Origin: Ganoderma boninense | Taxonomy: Eukaryota; Basidiomycota; Agaricomycetes; Polyporales; Polyporaceae | NCBI GenBank assembly: GCA_002900995.3 | Contig: CM035305.1 | Span: forward strand, 1,178,001-1,242,000 | DNA: 64,000 bases | Direction: 5' to 3' | Shown here: in pieces, positions 511 through 16,651 of the stretch | How positions within the stretch are numbered: the stretch's first letter is position 1 | Layout of the letters: every line of letters starts with the position of its first letter | Notes under the pieces: model-generated | Told to the model about the DNA's origin: nothing | Databases searched by the model: none | What the model saw: the letters and a program-made list of their open reading frames with translations, nothing else | Program-made: the position numbers and the translations under genes

Positions 511-2421
511 TCATGCATTTTGGTTTCCGCCTTCCGGATGGGGAGGCGCTTGCCCGGGAGGACCCCACTGCTCTTCCCCACCCCATCCGCCAGCTGCATT
601 CGGAACAGAGTATCCAGAGGCATCGTGGCTGCCAGTTGGGCCAGATGGGCCACCATATCCCCCATAACCCATGCCCATGCCTGCCATCCCGAAGTTGGCA
701 GCAAAGCGGGGGTTGATGTGGGGCTGAACATGAGGAACCTGGTAGCCAAACGAATAATCGAACGGCTGCTGCATCTGCTGCTGCATCGGATACTGCTGGT
801 AGCCCCATCCACCACCCATGCCCACTGCGGGGTCGTACTGGGCATCCATAGCCGAACCATCAGAATACTGACCAGTAGCTCGAGCAATGGCGAGCGAAGT
901 TGGCGAGAGGGCCCGAGGTGGTGGAGGCTCAGGAGGGCCTTGCCTCCCAGACCAGCTGCCGGAAGAGTGCCGATGGTCGCCACCGCGCCCGCGTCCTCGC
1001 CCGCGTCCACGACCGCGATCTCCATGGTGTCGGTCGCGGCCACGGCCCCTTCCTCGGTCTTGGAATCCTCCCCGTCCTCGACCGCGTCCGTGGCCCCTAG
1101 GAGAGCTGGGAGGGGACGCCAGAGGTCTTGGCTTTTCGATCTTTTCTTCCTCCATCTCGGGAGGCGGTAGGCCATACGAATCTGAGTATGGGTCGTCGTA
1201 GGGAATGGGAGCAGGCCGCGAGGGCCCCGCGCCATAGTCCAAGTCGCTATATGAGAGCGTTGGAGAACGGTCATACGTGGCGGATGTTCCGCCATACGGA
1301 TCGTCGATCATGTCCTGGTCCTTCATGAAAGAAGGAACAGGTGTCGCATGTCGGGACGAGACCACTGAGCCGGAGCGGGACCGCTGCTGCTCTCGTCTAA
1401 TCCAAGTATGATATGCCCAAGCTCACGAGACATCGAGAAAATGGGGGACGAACCTCTGAGTCTGTGATCTCTTGTGTGCCGCCTCCGCCTCATCGTCGGA
1501 GAACTCGAGTTCGTCTTCCCCAGGCTCCTCGTCATGCACATTGCTTGCGTCACTTCCTTTCAGGTGCCGGAGTTGTTGAACGAAGACGTAGTGGCTCTTC
1601 TCTGGAACATGGAACACGGGTCGGCCGACTTGGACTTTCTCCTCATCGAGTGGCCATTTTGAGTTGAATTTGATTTGATAGAGAGGTTCGCTGGTAGGAC
1701 CGAAAGTCTCGAAGATCTATGGGGCCAGTTGGAGTTTAGCCCCTAGGTGTAGAAACGCAAGACGCACATATCCCAGGACGTTTCTGTCATCGAAGACCAA
1801 CAGTGTCTCAGCGTCGAGGGCTTTTTCAGAACCACGGTTCGCGATGGGAGAAGGAACACCTTTCACAATAACGACATTGTTCACGATGCTCATGACTTCT
1901 CCAACCTTCTCCAAGCGTTCGTCGGGACCGACTTGTGAAACTTCTGGTACCAGAATGTCGAGGTCTACTAGTTCGTTCTTCGTCCGCACTTGCGCCTCGG
2001 AAGCTACTGCTTGGTCTCCATCTTCATCATCGTCATCTGCAACACGTCTTTTTTGTTTTGGTCGTTGTGTACCAGGTGCCTCCCCTTCCTCAGGTCCCGA
2101 GTCGGACTCGTCGGAGGAGTCTGAGTCGCTTGTGGACTCCGAAGGAGCGCTGTTCCTGTCAGAATTAATACAAAGCATGAAATGTTCGCAAACGCACCCA
2201 TTTCCATCCTCTACATCACCAAGAATGTCTGCCTCCACTTCCTTCTCACTATCAGTGTCGCTGTCCGTCCCGTGCTCATCGTCCGAGGAAGTCTGTTCTT
2301 GCAATGCCTGCTGAACTTTTTGGGGGACGTGGGTCGATGCGAGATCTCCGAGAATGTCTTGTATCAGTTGAAGGTCCTGTGGGATTGAAGAAGGGACCGC
2401 GAAGGAAAAATCGGTAGTCAT
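511..2421 (-). CDS. NAF1: H/ACA ribonucleoprotein assembly factor NAF1
   Basis: NAF1 is a nuclear factor that holds the place of Gar1 during assembly of H/ACA pseudouridylation snoRNPs. The spliced protein starts MTTDFSFAVPSSIPQDLQ (ATG at 2421), passes an acidic Ser/Asp/Glu stretch, then the Gar1/Naf1 beta-barrel core (LEKVGEVMSIVNNVVIVKG, then FDDRNVLGY joined to IFETFGPTSEPLYQIKFNSK). The family signature SDASNVHDEEPGEDELEFSD follows, and the C-terminus is rich in RGG-like and Gly/Gln/Pro sequence. Introns are predicted near 1718-1768 and 1383-1437; a 42-nt in-frame intron near 2163-2204 is possible. The frame stays open 30 codons above 2421 but has no earlier ATG, and an E-box lies there. 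It shares a divergent promoter with oxygenase copy A. Confidence 0.9.
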
Positions 2422-2692: not shown

Positions 2693-2907
2693 ATGGTACG
2701 GACAAAGGTACGTGCGTCTCAGTGCCGCGCCTTTGGAGTGTCATGTATATAGGAATGCTCATGCCTTCAAACATAGCAAACTGCTCGGAAGAGCAGTGGT
2801 GGTGAGCACTTATGCACACTGTCATTTTCGACGGCTGCCCATAGGGATAACCAGGCGTCGCCCCTCGCAGGCACTTAGGATTTGGTCTTGCCTCTCGCAA
2901 GTCGTCG
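2693..2907 (+). other. Histone H3 tail-like coding segment (exons 1-3 of copy A)
   Basis: ATG GTA CGG ACA AAG (2693-2707) joins at AAG/gtacgt to CAA ACT GCT CGG AAG AGC AGT GGT G (2777-2801), which joins to GC GTC GCC CCT CGC AGG (from 2855). The result is [22 protein letters not shown]. Histone H3 reads [21 protein letters not shown]. Residues 2-10 are identical, K4 and K9 stay in register, and A1 and K14 are replaced by Val. A second piece, ASRKSS (2890-2907), resembles the AARKSA around K27, shifted by one residue. Phases match across both introns (2708-2776 and 2802-2854). Initiator Met before Val is normally a substrate for removal. Confidence 0.75.
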
Positions 2908-5900
2908 AAGCAATACATCTCTAGTAACAGCTCAGATATTGATGAAGAAGTGACGGAACAGACGCAGTTTATACGGGTCTGTTATTATTCCAGCCTCGAT
3001 GCAGTCGCATTTATCCCACTAATCTCTCGTTCCACAGAATTCCCTACAAAACATATTTAAGCAAGACCTCGCGTTCACAGGATCGTTCTCATTCCATCGT
3101 GCTTACCCCGAAGCCCCCAACCCTTGCATTAACGTGAAGAGCATCGGCACGATCGGTCTGCCCTTACACGTGCGAGATGCAGAAGCCATCAAGGCTCGCG
3201 CCTCACAAGCTCCCTTCGGCAAAGCCACCAAGACAGTAGTGGACAAGTCCGTACGCGATACCTGGGAGATTGATGGCAGAGAGGCAAGTTCTTCTTCGCG
3301 ACTGATTTTCACGATCTACTACCCTAAACCTACAAGCTGACCAACTATCGTTTTCAGGTCCAGTTCAATAATAGAGCTTGGGCACCATTCCTAGACCAGG
3401 TCGTGCGCACCGTATGCGATACATTGGGTGTGAACTACGACGCTAGTCGACCTCGTTGCGACTTGTACAAGCTCTTGCTGTACGAGACGGGTTCTCAGTG
3501 CGTGTTTTCATGTCGTTGAAGGCGGTACGGGGCGGTTTAAATGGCTTCCAACCACCAGTTTCAAGGCTCACGTCGAGTACGTACATCTTCCTTCGAGCAT
3601 CTACGTATCTCATCAGTTTGCAGTACCGAGAAAGCGAATGGCATGTTCGCTACAATCGTCATCTTGCTCCCCTCGAAGTTCGGTGGGGGTTCAGTCCACG
3701 TCTCACACGGGGGCTCCTCGAAGGTGCTGGACTGTAGCCCGAATAGCGACACCGACACGACCGTCCTAGCCTGGTACACCGATGTGGAACACGAGGTGAA
3801 GCGTGTCACGAGCGGATATCGCCTGGCTCTCTCTTTCAATCTCGTCCATACAACAAGGTCGCTGCGACCTGCCCTTCCGACCCAGTCCAACACTGCTTAT
3901 CGCCTCCGCGAGATTTTGACATCATGGAGAGATGGAGATGGTGGTCCAAGCAAGATCATCTACCTACTCAACCACAAATACTCTCAAGCCAACCTCAGCG
4001 GAAGTGCACTGAAAGGTGCAGACGCTCACCTCGTTTCCACACTAGAAGCCATCTCGCATCCTCTCGGTTTCCATCTGGGTCTCGCTAACCTCATCTGCAC
4101 GGAACACGGATACAGTCACGTCGTGTCGGAGTGGGAAGAGGTGACGCTGGACCAAGTCGAGGAGACCACAGTCGAGATCGAGAACCTCGTCAACCTTGAT
4201 GGAGACCTCATCCAGGATACTTTCGAGTTCGACGTGGGGACGGACGTGATCCCTGACAAGTTCGCGCGCGAAATCACCTCTGGTGAGTATGATGATCAAG
4301 ATGACAATGGGGGTTACACTGGAAACGTGAGTCGCTGTCGTGCAAACATCAAGTGCTCAGACTTCTCACGAGACTCTGTTCTAGGAAGGTGCTACCGTTG
4401 AGAGATGTAAGCGAATATGCACCCCTTTTGATCCATCATACCGTCGCTGAGTTGACAAAGTCTATCATCGCACCGTGGTGGCTATCTGGCCCTCATGGGC
4501 ACATTACGACATCGTCTATGGAGAAGAAGCACTCTCGCGTGCCTGCATGGACCTGCATTCGTCCAAGACCACCACTCCGACTTCGGAGGAAGAGCTCCTC
4601 GTACAATTCATCCTCACACGTCTGGATGTAGATGACGGCGACGTTGATTATGATGAAGTCTTGCAGCATGTGCCGCCCGTAGCGTGCCGGTGGAAAGACC
4701 TGGCGATGTGGACAAAGACGATGGACAAATGCCTCCCTCAGGTCGGCATCTCAGCCTTGTTTGTAGAGGGGAGCATCAACACGGCCGTGAAGACTTTCGG
4801 ATTCAAGGCGGTCGAGCCGTGGTCAGTCACGCTCACTTGGCATCGAGATCATTGCATCCGCTCACTACCAATTGTTGTTTCCAGGATCGACGCCGCGCTC
4901 AAGGCAGACATGTCTGATCTTGAAGCTTTGAATTTCCTGGACCGCTTCGAATCTTGGATTACAGACAATTTGGCAAGCAAGACTGCGAGAACCATCAATG
5001 AGTGGATTCATGCTCATCGAAATCTTCGGCTTGAGCACCTGACCCAGCCAAGTACCGGCAACTGCATGCTATTTGTCGACCTCATCCTCAAATACAACGA
5101 CGCCGATTTCTTTGAGAAAAGGTATCAACGAGTTCAGATCATTATCGGTAATACGTTCTGACCTCTAGGCTTCAGGGTATTGCCTCAGTTGAAGGTGCAC
5201 TACGAGCCTTCTAGCGCTGCCGCAACTCGCAGAGTCTCTGTACAATCGAACAACTATCCCTGAAGCGAGTCGGACTCGGATGGCGCAAGATCTTCTAGCT
5301 GTTGCAGTTTCGAAGGTCGACTTCCACAGCTACACCAGTCGTCGTGAATATCGAACACCGAGCGAGGTGGCCATCTCTTTTGTAGAGATATGTCTTCGCT
5401 GTCGGTGCGACGACCTCCTCCCCGCGGTCCTCAATCGTCTAATGCAACCAGATCGTGGAACGTACGGCATGGATACCATCTTGCCAGTCCTCGCGTGTCT
5501 TGGAGAGGCCTCCCGTTCACGTTCTGGGGGCAAGCCCTTCCACGACGTGACTGCCTTTGCGCAGTGGGCATTGTCGTCTTACACGGCAGTCGTTGCTGCC
5601 TCTCCAGAAGACGTTTCCGCAAGCGAAATCATTTCCCTGTATGGAGCTCTGGAAGCCATCGGACAGGGGAAACTTATCGAGTCCCAGTAGGTGTGGCAAG
5701 CTCTTCCCACTTTCGACTTACTGATCTCGTTCGCGGCTAGACTTCTTCCCAAACTCGACGCAGCGCAAATGCCTTCGCATACGCTACAAGCTTTGCTCAG
5801 TGGACTCAATGCCAAACGCGACACTATCCGTCTCAACGAAGGACCAATGAAGTCCCTCATGACGCGGCTCGTGAGGAAGTATGCCACGATCGTCGACTTC

Positions 5901-6825
5901 CGCCCTGCTAACGCAAGCTGGGGATACGTCCCTGACGAGAAGTCCCGAGTGCAGGCTGGAGTTGAGGCACTCACCTACTGCGTCGAGATGGGAGTTTTAG
6001 ACTCGTGCGCTGAGGTGTTGCGGCGGTTCTTCACCAAGCCGGGCGGACTCGACGTGCGCTTCCTTCAATCCAATGTCCAGCCACTCTTGAAGAAGCTACG
6101 TCCACTACTGAAGAGACACAAGCTGTCAGTCGCCACGGATGCCGTCGCAGCTCCACTGCGCTCTCTGCTCTTCGACTGGGTGGGCGAGGTGATGGGTCCG
6201 CGACCTTCTGATGCAGGCCTCGCTCCCCTCCGCGCGCTGCCAGAGAAGTGGACGTGTACTTGCCAGCACTGTATCCCGGTCCGTCAGTGGCTCATAGAGT
6301 CTGCACTTGCCAGTCGCGTATTCTCGAACCTGGGTGCAGTGAATCGGAAGCACATCGAAAAGTTCCTCAAGGCGCATGCATCGAACATCGCGACCTGGGA
6401 CACGGTAGAGTCCAGGCCTCAGGGACTTATGGTATGTTGATTCTCTTCGCTGACGACCGCGTGACAGTCCGTTGAGCGCACGGGTTCTCTCCCTCCTTCA
6501 GGTCACCAAATCGAAGGAGATTCTCAGGCCCATGCAATGGAAGGAGAACCAGGCTGAGGGCCGGAAGTTGCTGGATGCTATCAGCACCGATGTTCGAGAG
6601 CTTCACGCTATCCTTGGCCCCGACTATATGATGGTCGCGACGCAACTGGGAATCAACGTTGTCGCCTCGATGCCTGGGCAAGCGATGCCCTCCGGACAAG
6701 CCAACCCAGTGGCTGGACCTTCCAAGTCGAGCAAGAAGGCTACGACGGCTACGACAAAGAAGAAGCGTCCGAAGGAGACGGCAGGCGGATCTCCGTCGCG
6801 CCCACCACCTAAGCGTCAGAAATAG
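2693..6825 (+). CDS. 2-oxoglutarate/Fe(II) dioxygenase-domain protein with histone H3-tail-like N-terminus (copy A)
   Basis: Thirteen exons are predicted: 2693-2707, 2777-2801, 2855-2976, 3038-3283, 3358-3497, 3559-3576, 3624-4326, 4385-4406, 4461-4821, 4885-5121, 5207 (or 5176)-5686, 5741-6431, 6502-6825; about 1,127 residues. Residues 1-31 mimic the H3 tail. A prolyl-hydroxylase-like double-stranded beta-helix follows, with iron ligands H187 and D189 (AHVD) and H245 (VEHEV) and the 2-oxoglutarate-binding R255 (SGYR). The remaining ~750 residues look helical and contain a CxCxxC motif; the tail is basic (KKKRPKE, PPPKRQK), suggesting a nuclear protein. Intron 3284-3357 has a GC donor. The exon after 5121 is in doubt: the acceptor at 5175 matches the paralogues (VLPQL) but then needs a one-base shift near 5207, whereas an acceptor at 5206 keeps the frame. 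Substrate unknown; hydroxylase or demethylase activity is inference from the fold. Confidence 0.75.
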
Positions 6826-7249: not shown

Positions 7250-10200
7250 ATGGTGCGTCCTATGAGCACAATGTGCAAATCACTTATTAACCTTAGCATA
7301 CAAGAGCGCCGCGCCCACGGGGGCTTTTGCTACGCCCACCCAGCCGACGGGTCTGCCAGATAACTCCACACCGAGCGGCGTGAACCCGCTCCCGCCTGCT
7401 TTACCTAACGCTTCTGGAAACAGCAGTAAGTCATGCAATTTGTCATATGCGTGATGACAGTGTATACCGGCATCCAGCGCTGACCTCGTATTCAAGGCGC
7501 TGGTGTTGCCGAGGGAAGCTCTGACCATGACAGGGTTGCGAACGAAGGGAATGGCGAGAACCTTAATAAGCGCGATGAGGTAGCTTGCCAGGAGGAGCAA
7601 GACGATGATGAAGAGGAAGAGGAAGAGGAGCAAGAAGATATCGATATACGCGTGAGTCCCAAAAGTGTCGTGTGAATATCATCCATTTCTTAGTGGTCCA
7701 CCTTCAGGAAGAGCTCGGCGACATCTTAGAGGGTGGTCTGGAGTTTACAGGCGCAATTTCCTACCACAAGACATTCCCCACGGCTCCCAATCCCGTCCTT
7801 GATATTGAGGGGCTAGGCACTGTGGGCTTGCCTCTCGGCTCGAGGGACGCGGCAGCGATTAAGACCTGTGCAGAACAAGCTCCGTTCGGCATGGCCGACC
7901 AAACAGTGATTGACAAGACTGTGCGCGACACATGGGAAATTGATGGACGCAAGGTATGTTCTAACCACACTGCTTATATTCGGTTGTGCCTCATCTGATC
8001 TCCGTTTACCACGTCAGGTCAACTTCGGGAATGCGGCATGGCACCCCTTCCTCGAGGGTGTCCTTCGGGACGTCTGCCAGGCGCTTGGTGTCAACTTCGA
8101 CGCGAGTAAGCCACGATGCGAGCTCTACAAGCTGCTCCTTTATGAGACCGGTTCTCAGTGCGTCTACATGTTTCACAGAGGGTTATACAACATGCTGATG
8201 ATATAAATCCAGCTTTCTACCTCATGTTGAGTGAGTTTTCAACAGTCTTTTGCCAAGCCCCATTGCTGACGTGCCGCAGCACCGAGAAGGTAGATGGCAT
8301 GTTCGCCACGATTGTGGTTGTGCTCCCGTCCAAATTCACAGGCGGCGCGGTCCACGTCTCTCACGGGGGTTTCTCCGAGACCTACGAACACAGTGCTCGT
8401 AGTCAAACCGAGACCACGGTTCTCGCATGGTATACGGACGTCGAGCATGCAGTGCAGCCTATCATGAGCGGATATCGGCTCGCGCTCTCCTTCAACGTTA
8501 TCCACACAACAAACTCCCTCCGTCCGGTCGTCTCCAAGGCCAGCGAGGCTGCCGTTCGACTTCGCCGTGTCCTCCAATCTTGGGCAGAGGATGACTACGA
8601 CGCACCTGACAAGATCATCTATCTACTCGATCACAAGTACTCGCAGGCAAACATGAGTGGCAGCGCACTCAAGGGTTCCGACGCACACCTGGTCGCGATG
8701 CTTGATAGTGTCGGAGGATCTCTTGGATTCCATCTCGGCCTAGCGAACCTCACCTGCACTCAACGCGGTTCCGCAATGGACTCCGGCTGCGGTTATAGGG
8801 GGTACGGTGGTCGGAGGCGACGTGGCGGATGGGGTGGTTGGTATGACGATGAAGATGACGACGATGACGATGAATTCGTCGAGATGGAGGAGGTGGACGA
8901 GACAAGCGTTGACATCGAACATCTCGTTGACATGGATGGCAAGCTCATCCGCAAGACGATCGACTTCGACGTGGAGACGGACGTCATACCCCAAGAGGTC
9001 GCAGAGGAGATCACAGCAAGTCACCATGATGATCAATCCTATGAAGGTTATATGGGCAACGTGAGTCTTCGTCCTGTGCTTATGGTCCAAAACTGGAGCC
9101 CTGACGTTGATTCTGCCGAAACAGTATGCTGGATCCCTTGAGCGCTGTAAGCCTTTGAATTCACCATTCGATTCCTTGTACTGATCACCTCCGCAGTCTA
9201 CCGGCGGACAGTTCTCGTCATATGGCCTCCATTCGCTCATTTCGACATAATTCACGGTGGGCGGGGCTTGGAGTATGCTTGCGAAAAAGTGCGCGCCTCC
9301 ACTGGTTCTCGCCCTACTCAGGAAGAACTCGAACTCGTGAACATCATTCTCTCCCGATACCGGGGCCGCACCACGGAGATCGTCTCAAGTGTGTGCCGTG
9401 CAGCGTTCCGGTGGAAAGACATTGCACTGTGGGTCAGGGCAGTCCAGACATGCTACCTGTCTGTCGCAGCGCTCAAGGGCGATCACATACACGAGGTTGT
9501 CGCGACCTTTGGTTTTGCGCAGGTGCAGTCCGCGTGAGTCTGGCTATTTACATCGCTTTGACCATACAATTGATTTTCTAATGTCCCTACAGTTTGGAGC
9601 TTGCGGTCCGTATGGAGAACTCGAACGTCCACGCGATCCAATTCCTCGACAACTTTGAAAATTGGGTGGAACATCAGCAGTCCGAAGTACTGACTGCCTC
9701 CGCCGTACCATGGATCGAAAGGCAGCGAACGATAAGATTTTCTGAGCTGAAGGGGACGACGTTCGATAGTCCAGGCCCCCTGATCGCGCTCATCCTCAAA
9801 CACAAAGACGTTGAATTCCTTGAGAAGAGGTGCGTCATAGTCTGTCACTGCAGCGTTTGGCTGTAGTGTAGAAAATTTGATATTTATAATTGCTTCAGTG
9901 TTCTTCCATTGGCTAAGTCGGACCAGAACTCGCTGGCTTTGAAGCGTTGGGCGACCGAGCTTCACAACGCCGAGGCCATCCCAGCCGACGTCCGCGCAAG
10001 GATAGTCAAGGACGTTCTCAGCGCTGCGATGTCCACGGTGGACTTTTGGAAAGTGCTGAAGCCTTTGGCACTTTCCGCTTACTCTTCTGTTTATCACCGG
10101 CAGACTGAGGTCCCCGAAGAGCTGAAGCGGGCCCAAGAGTATGCCCAAGCATGTGTAGATGTGAACTGCGAAGATCTCTTCGCTTTGGCGGTCCCAAAAC

Positions 10201-11762
10201 TGCTTGCCTTCGAAGGTCTTCAGGATAACATGATACAGCTTCGTGTGAAGGAGGTCATTATGCCACTCATCGCCTATGTATCAGCGGCCGCTCGCTCCCG
10301 GCCTGTTGCCGGCTTGAGCGAGTTGTCTGAAAAGGCACTCGCTTTGCATCTCAAGGCCACCCTTGCCGATTCTCGGAGTATCTCGCAGACAAGCATAGCA
10401 GGGATGATCCAGGCCGCCACAACGTGCGGACAGCCAGATTTGTTCTTGACTGGGTAAGTTCGTGTGTTCTGGAGGTGGAGAGTCATTCTAAACAGGGTTT
10501 GATCTCCCAATGACAGCATCATTCCGAAACTCGAGGCGTTGAATCTTCAAGACACACAACTCCGTGCGATCATGGATGAAGTGCACGCAAATCGCGCTCT
10601 CCTCGACCCATCAGACATCAAAGTCCAACCCGTCCTCTTGCGTCTTCTCAAGAAATGGGTCTCCATTGTGAACCTAACAACATACGCCGGAACATCTTAC
10701 TACGGGCACCAGTCCCCCAAGCCTGCCATCCCGGTCCTCGAATTCTGCCTTACGCTCCGTCTCCCGGAAGTGTGCACCATCGTCGCGAAACGCCTCCTTC
10801 ATCCTACCAGACTGGACGCGGAGTATATCAAAAACCAACTGGCCCCGCTTCTCCCTGGTCTCAGCGCTCTCCTCGGGAGACAGAAGCAACCGCTTACCTC
10901 TCCTACGTTCGCACCGCTCTTCCGCGCGATCATGCTCCTCTACACGCAGAAGGTTCTTGGTCCCGTCCTGCCGATACCTTGAGCAAGCATCTGCAAGCCC
11001 TCAACAGGTGGACGTGCAGCTGCGAGGTGTGCCCCTCCGTCCGCAAGTTCCTGACCTCGGGGGCAACTGAGCGCATGGAGTGGCACAGGATCGGGGCCCC
11101 GAAGCGGCGCCACGTCGAGCAGTTCCTCGACTTGCATGCCCGATCGTTGGCGACCTACACTCTGATCCGGACCACACCTCAGGGATTGACGGTACGTGTC
11201 GCTGAGGTTGTTCTATGGTGATGCAGGAAGCTGACGGCACGGTGCAAAGGTCACGAAGGCGAAGGAGCTCGTCGCCCCAGCGCGGTGGGTGGAACACCAG
11301 AAGAAAGGCCTGGAAATGCTCAAGACATCAGTGCCGACCCTGCGGTGGTCAAGGCGGTGCTTGGTGAGGACCACGCGAGGATCTCAGCGCTGCTCCTTGG
11401 TCGACCATATGTCAATGCCCCGCCCCAGCTGCTGCTAGTACTGCAGCTACGGCTGGTGCAATTCAAGCTATATCCGCGCAGCCACTTGCAGGCCCTTCAC
11501 ATGCAGGTGCCCCCGTCGCGCCGCCGGGTGCTGTGATGGCGGGGCATCAGCGGCGGCGAACGTAAATAAACGGCCGTACAGTACCGCCGTGCCGGGCGTC
11601 GCACAACCGTATACTGCAAACTCCATACCTGGAGGCACTCCGGCGTCCACGAGTGCGACTGCAGGCCCTTCCAGTGTTGCTGCACCTCCGGTCAAGCGTA
11701 GGAAGACGACGTACGATGAGAAGGACGTCATCGACCTACCTGATATGTCCACCCTACGATAG
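7250..11762 (+). CDS. 2-oxoglutarate/Fe(II) dioxygenase-domain protein, copy B (frame-broken near the 3' end)
   Basis: Exons: 7250-7252 (the start codon alone), 7305-7425, 7497-7651, 7708-7953, 8018-8157, 8213-8230, 8280-9060, 9125-9146, 9197-9533, 9593-9829, 9899-10453, 10517-11191, 11250-11762. The N-terminus is low-complexity then strongly acidic, with no H3-like sequence. Iron ligands are H226/D228 (PHVD, in the 18-nt exon) and H284 (VEHAV), with SGYR after. A Gly/Arg/Trp-rich and poly-Asp loop (8780-8890) is absent from copy A. The C-terminal half is collinear with copies A and C and has the motif WTCSCEVC. Single-base shifts are needed near 10970 (C run), 11313, 11430 (C run) and 11540 (G run) to follow the paralogue through KRRKTTYDEKDVIDLP to the stop. 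It is therefore either a decaying gene or one with sequence errors. Confidence 0.7.
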
Positions 11763-12212: not shown

Positions 12213-15200
12213 ATGTCTTTGATAACTTCTCCTTCTGCTCAGGTGAGTCGTGGAGTATGGCCCCGACACAGTGAGACCCTGGCAGGCTGACGGGGCTTGA
12301 ATTGGAAACGATAGCCCTTCCAGCCAGCAACCAGCTTTAAAGCCCGCGAATCATCGGGCGAGGTTGATGTAGAATGGGATGATGGTACGCTCGTCTTGTC
12401 AGGATGTGACTAACTATTTGGCACGCTTATAATACCATCGCAGCTCCCATCGACTGCGACGGTACAGACAGCCCCACTACTCCCTCAGGCAATGAGATGC
12501 TTGACGGGAACGGTGTGGATGGACTCACAGAGGAGGAGTCAGAAGACGGTGAGGGGCTTCTCAGATCCGCACGGGCCTTGGAAATATCCGAGTGAGTACG
12601 TGAATGATACTGCTGTCTTGCTCCGTGCACCTCGTCTAATTATTATGCATAGGATGATCTCGCGACTATTTTTGAGGGCGACCTGGACTTCAATGGCGAG
12701 TTTTCCTTCCATCGCGCTTATCCTTTGGCCCCAAATCCTTCCCTGAACATCAACGATCTCGGAACCATTGGCCTCCCTTTGAGTCTGAGAGACGCGGCTG
12801 CAATCAAGCACTCTTCGGACCAAGCACCCTTCGGCAAGGCCGACCAAACGATCATTGACAAGTCCGTTCGTGACACATGGGAAATCGACGCGCACCAGGT
12901 AAGTATTTCTGCCATGTTTATTGATCTTGGACCATTCGCTGACAATCCCATGAAACACAGGTTCATTTCGAGAACCCAGCATGGCAGTCGTTTCTAAACG
13001 ACACAGTGCGCGACGTTTGTGAAGCGCTTGGCATTAACTTTGATACCAGCAAGCCGCGTTGCGAATTATACAAATTACTCCTGTACGAGACCGGATCGCA
13101 GTATGTTCAATGGGCTCCTTTCAAACACGTACGTGCTGATATTTTACATAGCTTTCTGCCGCATATCGAGTAGGTTTTTTGTTTTTTTGTGAAGTCGTCC
13201 AAACCTCAAGATAACTCTAGTACAGAAAAAGCCAACGACATGTTCGCGACCATGGTCATCGTTTTGCCGTCAAGGTTCACAGGCGGTGCAGTGTGTGTCT
13301 CACATGGCGGTACTTCGAAGGTTTACGACCACTGCGAGAACAGCCTGAACAAGATTACCGTGTTAGCCTGGTATACCGACGTCAAGCACGCTGTAAAGCA
13401 TGTCACAAGTGGCTATCGCGTCGCCCTTTCCTTCAACCTTATCCATACGACGAGCTCTCTCCGACCAGCTGCATCCGAATGCAGTATCTCCTCTGATCTA
13501 CGACATATCTTGCTCTCGTGGAAGGATGCCGGAGGTGATGAGCGAGCTCCTAAGAAGATTGTTCGCCTGCTCGATCACAAGTACTCCGAGGCGACCCTCG
13601 GACGCTCTGGCAGCCAGGCTCTCAAAGGGCCAGATGCACACTTACTCACCCTCCTTCGGGACGTCGCGGCTCCGCTGGGTTTCCGGATAGGCCTGGCCAA
13701 CCTCCACTTTACGCAAAGTGGGCACGGCGCTGAGCCTACAGGTGGATCTAGTCGGAATCGTAACAGGGGATGGCCGGGGGGTCGATGGGGCTACGGTCAA
13801 TGGGATGATGATTTTGAACCAGATGACTCGAACGTCCAGATGACGAACGTCGAGTCGGAAGTCGTCAAGATCAAACATCTGGTCGACTTGGATGGAGATT
13901 CCATTCGACATTCCCTGGAATACTCGCCTGAAGAGGTCATTCCCGATGGGCTTATCGAGAAGATCACATCTGGCGACTATGATGAGCAGGCCTATGAAGG
14001 ATACATGGGGAATGTGAGTCCAACCGCCGATGCGTAAGGAACGATGAACTGACCGTCTGTCAAACTCAAACAGTATGCAGGCTCGCTGGAGCGCTGTACG
14101 AACCCAAACATTTCTTTGGCGTCTGAGGTGGCTGACTTGCTCTCTAGATTATCGCCGAACTGTCCTGGTAATCTGGCCGAAATGGGCGCACTTCGATGTC
14201 GTTCATGGCTCCAAGGCTTTCTCGTTTGCTTGTGAGGAGCTTCGCTCATCGACTAGCCTGGAGGCGACTGAAGAAGAAGTGGAGCTCATTGAGATCATCC
14301 TGGCACGGTCGAATGCGTCCAACTCAAAGGATGTTGTCTCGAGCGTTTGCCGTGTTGCTTTAAGATGGAAAGACTTCTCTTTGTGGTTTAGGGCAGTGAG
14401 AGCGTGCGACGCGGAGAAGTCAATAGGCGCACTCCAGGTCAACAACATCTTGCAAGCTGTTGCCACATTTGGATTTGACGAGGCACAACCCTGGTAAGTG
14501 ATTACCCGTTGTCATATGCCAGGACACCCCCTGATGGTCGCTTGCAGTCTAGAGCGCACCATCGAGAGGGATCCCTCCAACTCTCGGGTGTTCAAGTTCT
14601 TGGAGCGCTTTGAGGAGTGGGTCGCAAGCCAGAAGTCGGAAGAGCTGACGGCACTCACCGCGTCGTGGTCTGAGATAGTTAGGGAAAACCGACTGGACGA
14701 CCTGAAGTCCATCGCCCACGATAGCCCGGAGCTACTCGTCCCGGTGGTACTCAAGTATCGGGGACTCGAGTTCCTCGAACAGACGTGAGTGCTGATTATT
14801 TTATGGGAGATTCAGGGCTGACCTTCATGCACTCTGCTGGCAGCATTCTGCCTCTCGTCCATCAGAGCTCAGACTGCATGCTTTTGTTGACTCACGCTGT
14901 CACGCTATACGGCGCCGATGGAGTCCCTGCAGAAACTCGCACACGCATGGCGAAGGACGTCCTTCGGGAATGTCTCTCCAAGATGGACTTCTATCCGACC
15001 ATCCAACACAGACGACGATCACACCACGGGCCCATGTACGGACAGGAAGCTTCGGATGAATCTCAACAACTGGAGAGGGCGAAACCATACCTGAGGGCAT
15101 GCATTGCCCTCGATTGTGCAGAGCTTTTCCCGATTGCTGTGGAGAAGCTTCTGGCCCTTGGCTACCGGGCAGAAGATCTTGTCTATCGACGTGTCAAGCA

Positions 15201-16651
15201 TGTGGTCTTACCCATCGTGGCGTACGTTGGAGAGCTCGCTCGCTCACGACCAGGGGGTCAACAGGTTCCTGGCTTGCGCATGCTGTGTGAAGAGGCGGCG
15301 ACTCTCTTCTTACAACACTTTGCGCCGAGGCCACAGAGCTTGAGTAAGACAGACATTTCATTCCTTATCAAAATCGCAGTAGAGGGTGGCCAGTTTGACT
15401 TGGTTCTCACTGGGTGAGTCCTGAATTTGTTTGACGCCACGCTTACTCACTCGCAAAGACTTACAGGATCGCTCCAAAGCTCGAGGTGTTGAATCTCAAA
15501 GACGCACAACTACGGGAAGTAGTGGAACAACTACACGCGAAGCGTACCGATGTCGATTCCTCGGGGACAGGCCTTAACCCGGTGCTCCTCCGCCTGCTTG
15601 GGAACTGGATCGGCACCACTTCTCTGACCACTCCAGCACAATTGACGCACTACGCCTACGGGACTCCTTCTGCAAACCGGGCTAAACCCGCTATCGACGT
15701 TCTCGATTTCTGTCTGAAGGTCAGCCTCCCGGAAGCATGCGACGCTATCCTCAAACGGCTCCTCAACCCGCCCGTCCTCAACGCTGAGTACATCAAAACT
15801 CAGCTTGCACCACTCTTGCCCGACCTTCGTGCGCTTATTCTTGAGCACAACCAGCCGCTCACTTCTCCGGTTTTTGCTGCTGTGTTTCGGACCATCATGC
15901 TCTATTGGACCCAGAAGGTTCTTGGGCCGCGTCCCCTCAGCCCGTCGCCCGAAACACCTCGAAAAGATCGGAAACTGGCAGTGTTCATGCGACCTGTGCC
16001 CCGCCGTACGCCAATTCTTGACGTCTGAAGCCGCAGAAGACAAGGAATGGCAACGCATCGGTGCAGTCAAGCGAGGACATGTCGAGAAGTTCTTGCAGGC
16101 GCACGCACGCGAGGTCGCCACGTACAGTACGATTCGCACCACCCCACACGGGCTGAAGGTATGCGCACTCATTCTGTCTTGGGCGACGGTATCGGCTCAT
16201 GCCGTCGATCGTCGTATAGGTCACGAAGCTACCGGTTATCGTTGCGCCAGGACGGTGGGTCGAACACCAGCGCCAAGGTCTCGACATGCTCAAGTCCATC
16301 AGCCCCGATCCCTCTGAGGTCGAAGCTGTACTAGGGTCGAAGCACGCAGAAATATCCGCCCTTCTACAAGGTCGTGGTTCAGTCGAGGCTACTAGACCTG
16401 ACGTTGATACGGCTGTCCCTTCTACCAGCTTCCCTGCACCTGCGGATGCACAACGATTCGGTGCTCGCAATGTCTCCGCGACGATTACAGCGAGCTTGAA
16501 CAGCTCCGAACAAATATCCGCGGCAGACGCGAGTCATGGGAACCAAGAACGTAGTGCGCAATCACGGAGAGAGAGGCCCCTTGAAACTAGCCGGCCAGCG
16601 AAGTGCAGGAGGACGACCTACGATGACAGAGAAATCATTGATCTCACATGA
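12213..16651 (+). CDS. 2-oxoglutarate/Fe(II) dioxygenase-domain protein, copy C, with C-terminal SUMO-interaction-like motif
   Basis: Exons: 12213-12242, 12315-12384, 12444-12591, 12653-12898, 12961-13100, 13152-13169, 13221-14013, 14074-14095, 14148-14493, 14548-14784, 14844-15413, 15467-16158, 16220-16651. The N-terminus (MSLITSPSAQ...) is acidic and unlike those of A and B. The 18-nt exon supplies PHID (iron ligands H and D); the third ligand is in VEHAV and the 2-oxoglutarate arginine in SGYR. Exons 4, 5, 6, 8 and 10 have the same lengths as in A and B (246, 140, 18, 22, 237). The C-terminus ends CRRTTYDDREIIDLT, a basic patch plus a hydrophobic-acidic SUMO-interaction-type motif. Frame breaks are inferred near 12556 (one base missing in GGGG) and near 15935-15950 (net one extra base, or two C missing). 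Likely nuclear; substrate unknown. Confidence 0.72.

Follow-up and report, generated by a model that had tools for sequence, protein, structure and literature searches.

A Ganoderma boninense gene predicted to encode a 2OG-Fe(II) oxygenase begins with exons that match a histone H3 gene in both residues and intron positions. We read this gene, referred to here as gene A, as an intact oxygenase gene that took over its 5′ end from an H3 gene and whose tail would serve mainly as a ligand of proteins that read the H3 N-terminus, a reading, drawn from sequence, to which we give about even weight. The gene was found in a 64,000-nucleotide stretch of contig CM035305.1, here called the window, and its features are listed in Table 1 with those of its neighbours and of a second gene family discussed below.

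Table 1. Gene A, its neighbours (window positions) and the loci of the H3-tail/zinc-finger family (contig positions)
Feature	Position	Strand	Description
Gene A, exon 1	2693–2707	+	ATGGTACGGACAAAG; M-V-R-T-K; H3 residues 2–4 identical, A1 replaced by V
Gene A, intron 1	2708–2776	+	Phase 0; GTACGT...ACATAG; at the position of intron 1 of the C2 H3 gene
Gene A, exon 2	2777–2801	+	CAAACTGCTCGGAAGAGCAGTGGTG; Q-T-A-R-K-S-S-G-(G), corresponding to H3 residues 5–13
Gene A, intron 2	2802–2854	+	Phase 1, within the G13 codon; GTGAGC...AACCAG; the C2 and C8:3220 kb H3 genes share position and phase
Gene A, exon 3	2855–2976	+	(G)-V-A-P-R-R-H-L, H3-like to about residue 20, then a Ser/Asp/Glu-rich linker; without in-frame ATG
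Gene A, exons 4–7	3038–4326	+	2OG-Fe(II) oxygenase catalytic domain, PF13640; H187-x-D189, H245, R255
Gene A, exons 8–13	4385–6825	+	C-terminal half; basic end KKKRPK...KRQK
Divergent neighbour, first coding part	1717–2421	-	Gar1/Naf1-like; PF04410 below cut-off
Paralogue B	7250–11762	+	Start uncertain; without H3-like start
Paralogue C	12213–16651	+	Start by eye; without H3-like start; frame apparently broken by 1 nt near 15935
Zinc-finger family loci	C1:3128.7k, C2:171.5k, C9:2979k, C12:2290k, C13:436k		
Zinc-finger family loci, continued	C13:457k, C22:30k, C1:1925k, C12:2961k		

Direct reading of the window placed the H3-like start at 2693–2976, with both introns where the original prediction had put them, and bore out its run of nine consecutive residues identical to H3 (RTKQTARKS, residues 2–10). 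By a rough estimate with assumed residue frequencies, such a 9-mer would arise here by chance in about 1e-11 of proteins. Over the first 20 positions, Met included, 15 residues are identical to the genome's own H3, and 41–44 of the 60 nucleotides in codons 1–20 are shared with the H3 genes; beyond residue 10 the tail has drifted (T11S, K14V, K18R and Q19H). A further likeness that had been claimed, between ASRKSS and the K27 region, was dropped, as by eye too few residues match and a one-residue gap is required. In gene A, V-R-T-K stands straight after the initiator Met (MVRTK), in keeping with the A/V-R-T-K start by which N-terminal H3 mimics of the PAF15 type are recognised. A genome search with M-A/V-R-T-K followed by GT-R-N-G, a pattern that misses the H3 gene on C2 (donor GTCAG), returned gene A as its single match in 55.6 Mb and nothing in the reversed control. 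Initiator Met before Val is usually removed, and the free V-R-T-K end that had been proposed for the protein is plausible.

The model of gene A, with splice sites placed by eye, runs from 2693 to 6825 and comprises 13 exons and 12 introns (11 GT-AG and one GC-AG, at 3284) that encode 1131 residues without an internal stop, the H3-like exons joining the oxygenase frame in phase. A model with a 38-nt intron at 5195–5232 was replaced by one with an intron at 5122–5194, which keeps the frame and a stretch resembling paralogue B, and the alternative acceptor removes an apparent frame break near 5200. As far as its sequence goes, gene A is an intact gene. The next in-frame Met after residue 1 is residue 196, inside the catalytic domain, and the open frame of exon 3 begins only at 2851, behind a TAA, and contains no in-frame ATG, so that the sequence offers the catalytic frame no visible start other than the H3-like ATG. 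Exon 3 ends at a phase-0 splice site, and paralogue B has one there too.

The gene A protein matched 2OG-FeII_Oxy_3 (PF13640) over residues 174–261 with 31.6 bits against a cut-off of 27 (E 3.3e-7), in a search that used an earlier gene model identical over these residues. H187, D189, H245 and R255, which we take to be the metal triad and the 2OG-binding Arg, are invariant in all four aligned proteins (A, paralogues B and C, and a bacterial relative), and the same domain and H-x-D...H...R arrangement are found in fungal and bacterial oxygenases of the PF13640 family. By sequence, gene A is a member of this family and a predicted oxygenase. When the whole protein was searched against Pfam at E values up to 1, PF13640 was the sole family, with no histone fold and no JmjC or Tet_JBP domain; one ORF of paralogue B gave Tet_JBP below the cut-off (E 0.061). 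The N-terminal 54 residues of gene A were weakly similar to Pfam's PAF15 (PF15715; 16.6 bits against a cut-off of 23.4, E 0.013), and a PDB sequence search with the oxygenase returned no matches. The basic C-terminal end presumably resembles a nuclear localisation signal.

Paralogues B and C were confirmed on the sequence to lack an H3-like start, as had been stated, and so does the bacterial relative, leaving gene A as the only one of the four with such a start. An apparent 1-nt frame break occurs near 10965 in B, which has more frame changes near its end. The breaks in B and C (window 10930–11060 and 15890–16030) fall at C-runs near the same conserved LGP site and may be sequencing errors or decay. 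The C-termini of both paralogues (window 11690–11762 and 16600–16651) have basic residues, which in B read KRRK, together with VIDLPD / IIDLT, and we take these to resemble a nuclear signal and a SUMO-interacting motif. On the other side, about 270 bp separate the likely ATG of the Gar1/Naf1-like neighbour from that of gene A.

In an oxygenase search of the genome 26 places matched, nine of which fall in A, B and C; among the 26 loci, some of which may fall short of the true gene start in the part scanned, an H3-like start was seen only where a locus overlaps the start of gene A, as three do. Elsewhere we noted QTSRRS (L051 and L056, the same string) and QTARRT (L059), with the rest of the H3 start absent. 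Distant oxygenase relatives are clustered at C3:7–284 kb, near the contig start, and at C5:3.70–3.76 Mb. In the bacterial and archaeal collection, 73 pattern matches yielded one confirmed relative, on contig JAJEAY010000182.1 (titled Rhodobacter MAG; L076:4854-7175), with 36% identity in the best segment. Its ORF is a single uninterrupted frame, cut by the contig end, that starts without an H3 tail and also matches PF13640. None of the seven pattern matches in the viral collection was a relative.

Four ordinary H3 genes were read in the genome (55.6 Mb, 74 contigs), at C2:858.8 kb, on C5 and twice on C8. The C2 gene has introns of 72 and 77 nt, one after the K4 codon and one in phase 1 within the G13 codon, and gene A has introns of 69 and 53 nt at both positions and in both phases, its first exon likewise ending after the K4 codon. 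This comparison with the organism's own H3 genes agrees with the proposed origin of the gene A exons at both sites of the C2 gene. The H3 gene at C8:3220 kb has only the G13 intron in common with gene A, and both introns are absent from the C5 gene and from the second gene on C8. Because two intron positions within 13 codons are common to both, the sequence argues for descent of the gene A start from an H3 gene and not for convergence; a route via another H3-derived gene, instead of direct descent, is possible. As only 41–44 of 60 nucleotides are shared with the H3 genes, the sequence also says that the capture is not recent. A short-word BLAST comparison of the gene A 5′ region with the H3 and zinc-finger loci, which is insensitive here, gave no match even for the exons.

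Gene A is not unique in this genome, a point that had not been foreseen: eight of the nine loci found of an unrelated zinc-finger family also start H3-like. Four H3-start patterns gave 8, 16, 1 and 10 matches in the genome, against 1, 5, 0 and 0 in the reversed controls. The 16 matches comprise 4 H3 genes, gene A, 6 zinc-finger family loci and 5 unrelated places, and the 10 comprise 3 H3 genes and 7 family loci. Gene models drawn by eye put the H3-like tail first, then a linker that closes with EPTGPLNYDETSD or a similar sequence, and next a zinc finger (FCFICQNGGNLITC...), followed by a middle domain without any Pfam match and a zinc ribbon; finger and middle domain each find at least nine loci. 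At the ninth locus, C12:2961 kb, no H3-like start was seen in the 1.1 kb upstream. Like gene A, the other eight begin with the H3-like stretch at residue 1. Their bodies, however, are unrelated to it, their tails run uninterrupted over the K4 and G13 codons, and they carry a PHD/ADD-like finger of their own. K4 is kept in 6 of the 8 tails; at the K9 position five have R, two have Q and one has K.

Against the PDB, the family finger is weakly similar to PHD fingers of TRIM33, CHD4, TRIM24, NSD3 and others (best E 0.012), and against Pfam's DNMT3 ADD it gave E 0.0067, below the cut-off. Several of these PHD fingers bind unmodified H3K4, and the sequence suggests that the family's own finger resembles such readers. 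The exon gap between tail and finger is about 7 kb at C22 (L029, with gag/aspartyl-protease-type sequence) and about 5 kb at C13:457 kb (L028/L073); these long gaps are apparently insertions. That the C22 H3-like start might be part of a retrotransposon was rejected, as the family finger exon follows on that strand some 7 kb further downstream, and the locus is best read as one family member carrying an insertion. A TAG in the finger matches of C12:2961k and C22 was likewise not taken as decay, since it immediately precedes FCY, at the expected place of an intron acceptor. The middle-domain match of the C13:435 kb copy contains two TGA codons, which are introns or breaks.

A zinc-finger-family origin of the gene A tail is not favoured, as all eight copies were read without the two introns that gene A shares with H3; the tail does resemble the C22 and C1:1925k copies in V14 and L20-G21. 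More broadly, the H3 tail may be a portable N-terminal module acquired at least twice, with introns in gene A and without them in the finger family, forming a network of mimics and readers that competes with nucleosomes for H3-tail readers, a tentative extension that we consider somewhat unlikely.

In the RTKQTARKS stretch, comparison of gene A with any one of the four H3 genes shows 6–7 nucleotide differences, spread over 5–6 of the nine codons and all synonymous. Under random substitution, the probability of no residue change is 1.6e-4 to 1.8e-5; this test also takes in changes within the H3 genes, which are known to be under selection. Restricting the count to the five sites at which gene A departs from every one of the four H3 genes gives about 1e-3. 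Both values rest on nine codons, a simple mutation model and one genome. Because the codon changes are all synonymous, with a probability of about 1e-3 or less under neutrality, they point to selection on residues 2–10 of the tail peptide, its conservation being inferred from codons in a single genome.

In the mechanism that we propose, an H3 gene with its first two introns gave gene A its 5′ end, and gene A would be transcribed and spliced over the H3-like exons. Removal of the Met would leave a free V-R-T-K end on a protein that is presumed to be nuclear, and PHD/ADD-type readers of the H3 N-terminus would bind this tail and either bring the oxygenase to chromatin complexes or compete it off. 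Acetylation of an N-terminal Val may occur and would block readers of the free end. Candidate readers are present in the genome as the PHD/ADD-like family.

Published passages describe such binding for PAF15, whose N-terminus is named VRTK (PMC8034647). The UHRF1 PHD finger binds PAF15 residues 2–11 with a Kd of 2.2 uM, against 1.5 uM for H3, and binding is abolished by R3A or T4D and little affected by K5A (passages of PMC7060239). The ATRX ADD domain tolerates A1V, as a V-peptide with K9me3 is bound at 4.3 uM and ARTKQTARK(me3)ST at 7.6 uM, and binds unmodified H3 1–8 poorly, at 100 uM at least (passages of PMC7181051). Because the latter peptide is poorly bound, some readers of this kind may fail to bind a tail that is unmethylated at K9, and by analogy K9 methylation of the gene A tail may matter for some of them.

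We rated reader binding first, methylation-dependent recruitment second and inert capture third. Under the second, the tail would be mainly a substrate of writers, its K9 (in ARKS) and K4 being methylated by H3 methyltransferases and the mark recruiting HP1-type or PHD/ADD proteins, as in the G9a mimic. Such methylation of K4 and K9 is possible from the sequence, and gene A is the only one of the nine non-histone H3-like starts (gene A and eight family members) in which K4, R8, K9 and S10 are all intact. A Pre-SET exon, presumably SUV39-type, was found at C10 by a search that gave no match in the control genomes. A Chromo_shadow search had no match in the genome, but it also had none in the control genomes, so it is not evidence of absence. 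H3K9-like motifs in non-histone proteins are described in the published passages (PMC10611923). We nevertheless consider a mainly writer-directed tail unlikely. Inert capture, in which the H3 exons merely contributed a start codon, perhaps with a promoter, and the tail has been retained through inertia, appears slightly less probable still: gene A requires a start codon, the H3-like one is the only in-frame one before residue 196, and the tail has drifted at T11, K14 and K18, yet residues 2–10 stayed constant while 5–6 of nine codons changed, and the share of nucleotides in common with H3 genes speaks against a recent event.

Two further explanations carry little weight. The exon joins rest on sequence with splice sites chosen by eye, and the H3-like exons could be an H3 relic that lies beside the oxygenase without being spliced to it. 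This is improbable, given that both introns keep the frame, that exon 3, open from 2851, lacks an in-frame ATG and reaches a phase-0 splice site matched in paralogue B, and that the catalytic frame would have no visible start if the H3-like exons were removed. Least probable of all is that the tail acts as an internal pseudo-substrate or autoinhibitor of its own active site. Only a short Ser/Asp/Glu-rich linker separates it from the catalytic part, but the domain is 2OG-FeII_Oxy_3 and by Pfam neither JmjC nor TET, and it also occurs without any tail in B, C and the bacterial relative.

The rest of the PAF15 sequence is less H3-like than gene A, and mimic motifs of the G9a/WIZ/LIG1 type are short and internal, whereas the gene A tail lies at the true N-terminus. 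For G9a, a paper is cited by title in the reference list of PMC8541646. PAF15 (PCLAF) has V at position 1 followed by RTK, an H3-like end as in gene A, and the passages of PMC7060239 and PMC8034647 limit the shared extreme N-terminal peptide to VRTK; gene A differs in having nine H3 residues in a row and the introns of an H3 gene, and in being an enzyme gene. G9a, WIZ, LIG1 and other H3K9 mimics share with gene A an H3K9-like motif in a non-histone protein (passages of PMC10611923). N-terminal and internal H3 mimics are known already, as PAF15 and the H3K9 mimics in those passages (PMC10611923). An exact search for the tail peptide returned PMC7181051, in whose passages the peptide is a test ligand, and PMC8163883. 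A limited search of the open-licence PMC literature returned no oxygenase with a captured H3 start and no report of H3 mimics in fungi.

The H3 mimics known to us and in published passages are short look-alike motifs. In gene A, by contrast, an enzyme gene appears to have received a genuine segment of an H3 gene together with its introns, which places K4 and K9 where they stand in H3. Should the predicted protein be produced, it might also be detected by antibodies to H3K4me or H3K9me, and, if the reading is true, gene A would be a natural test of how a detached H3 tail acts in the nucleus. The parallel zinc-finger family suggests that capture of the H3 tail may recur in this lineage.
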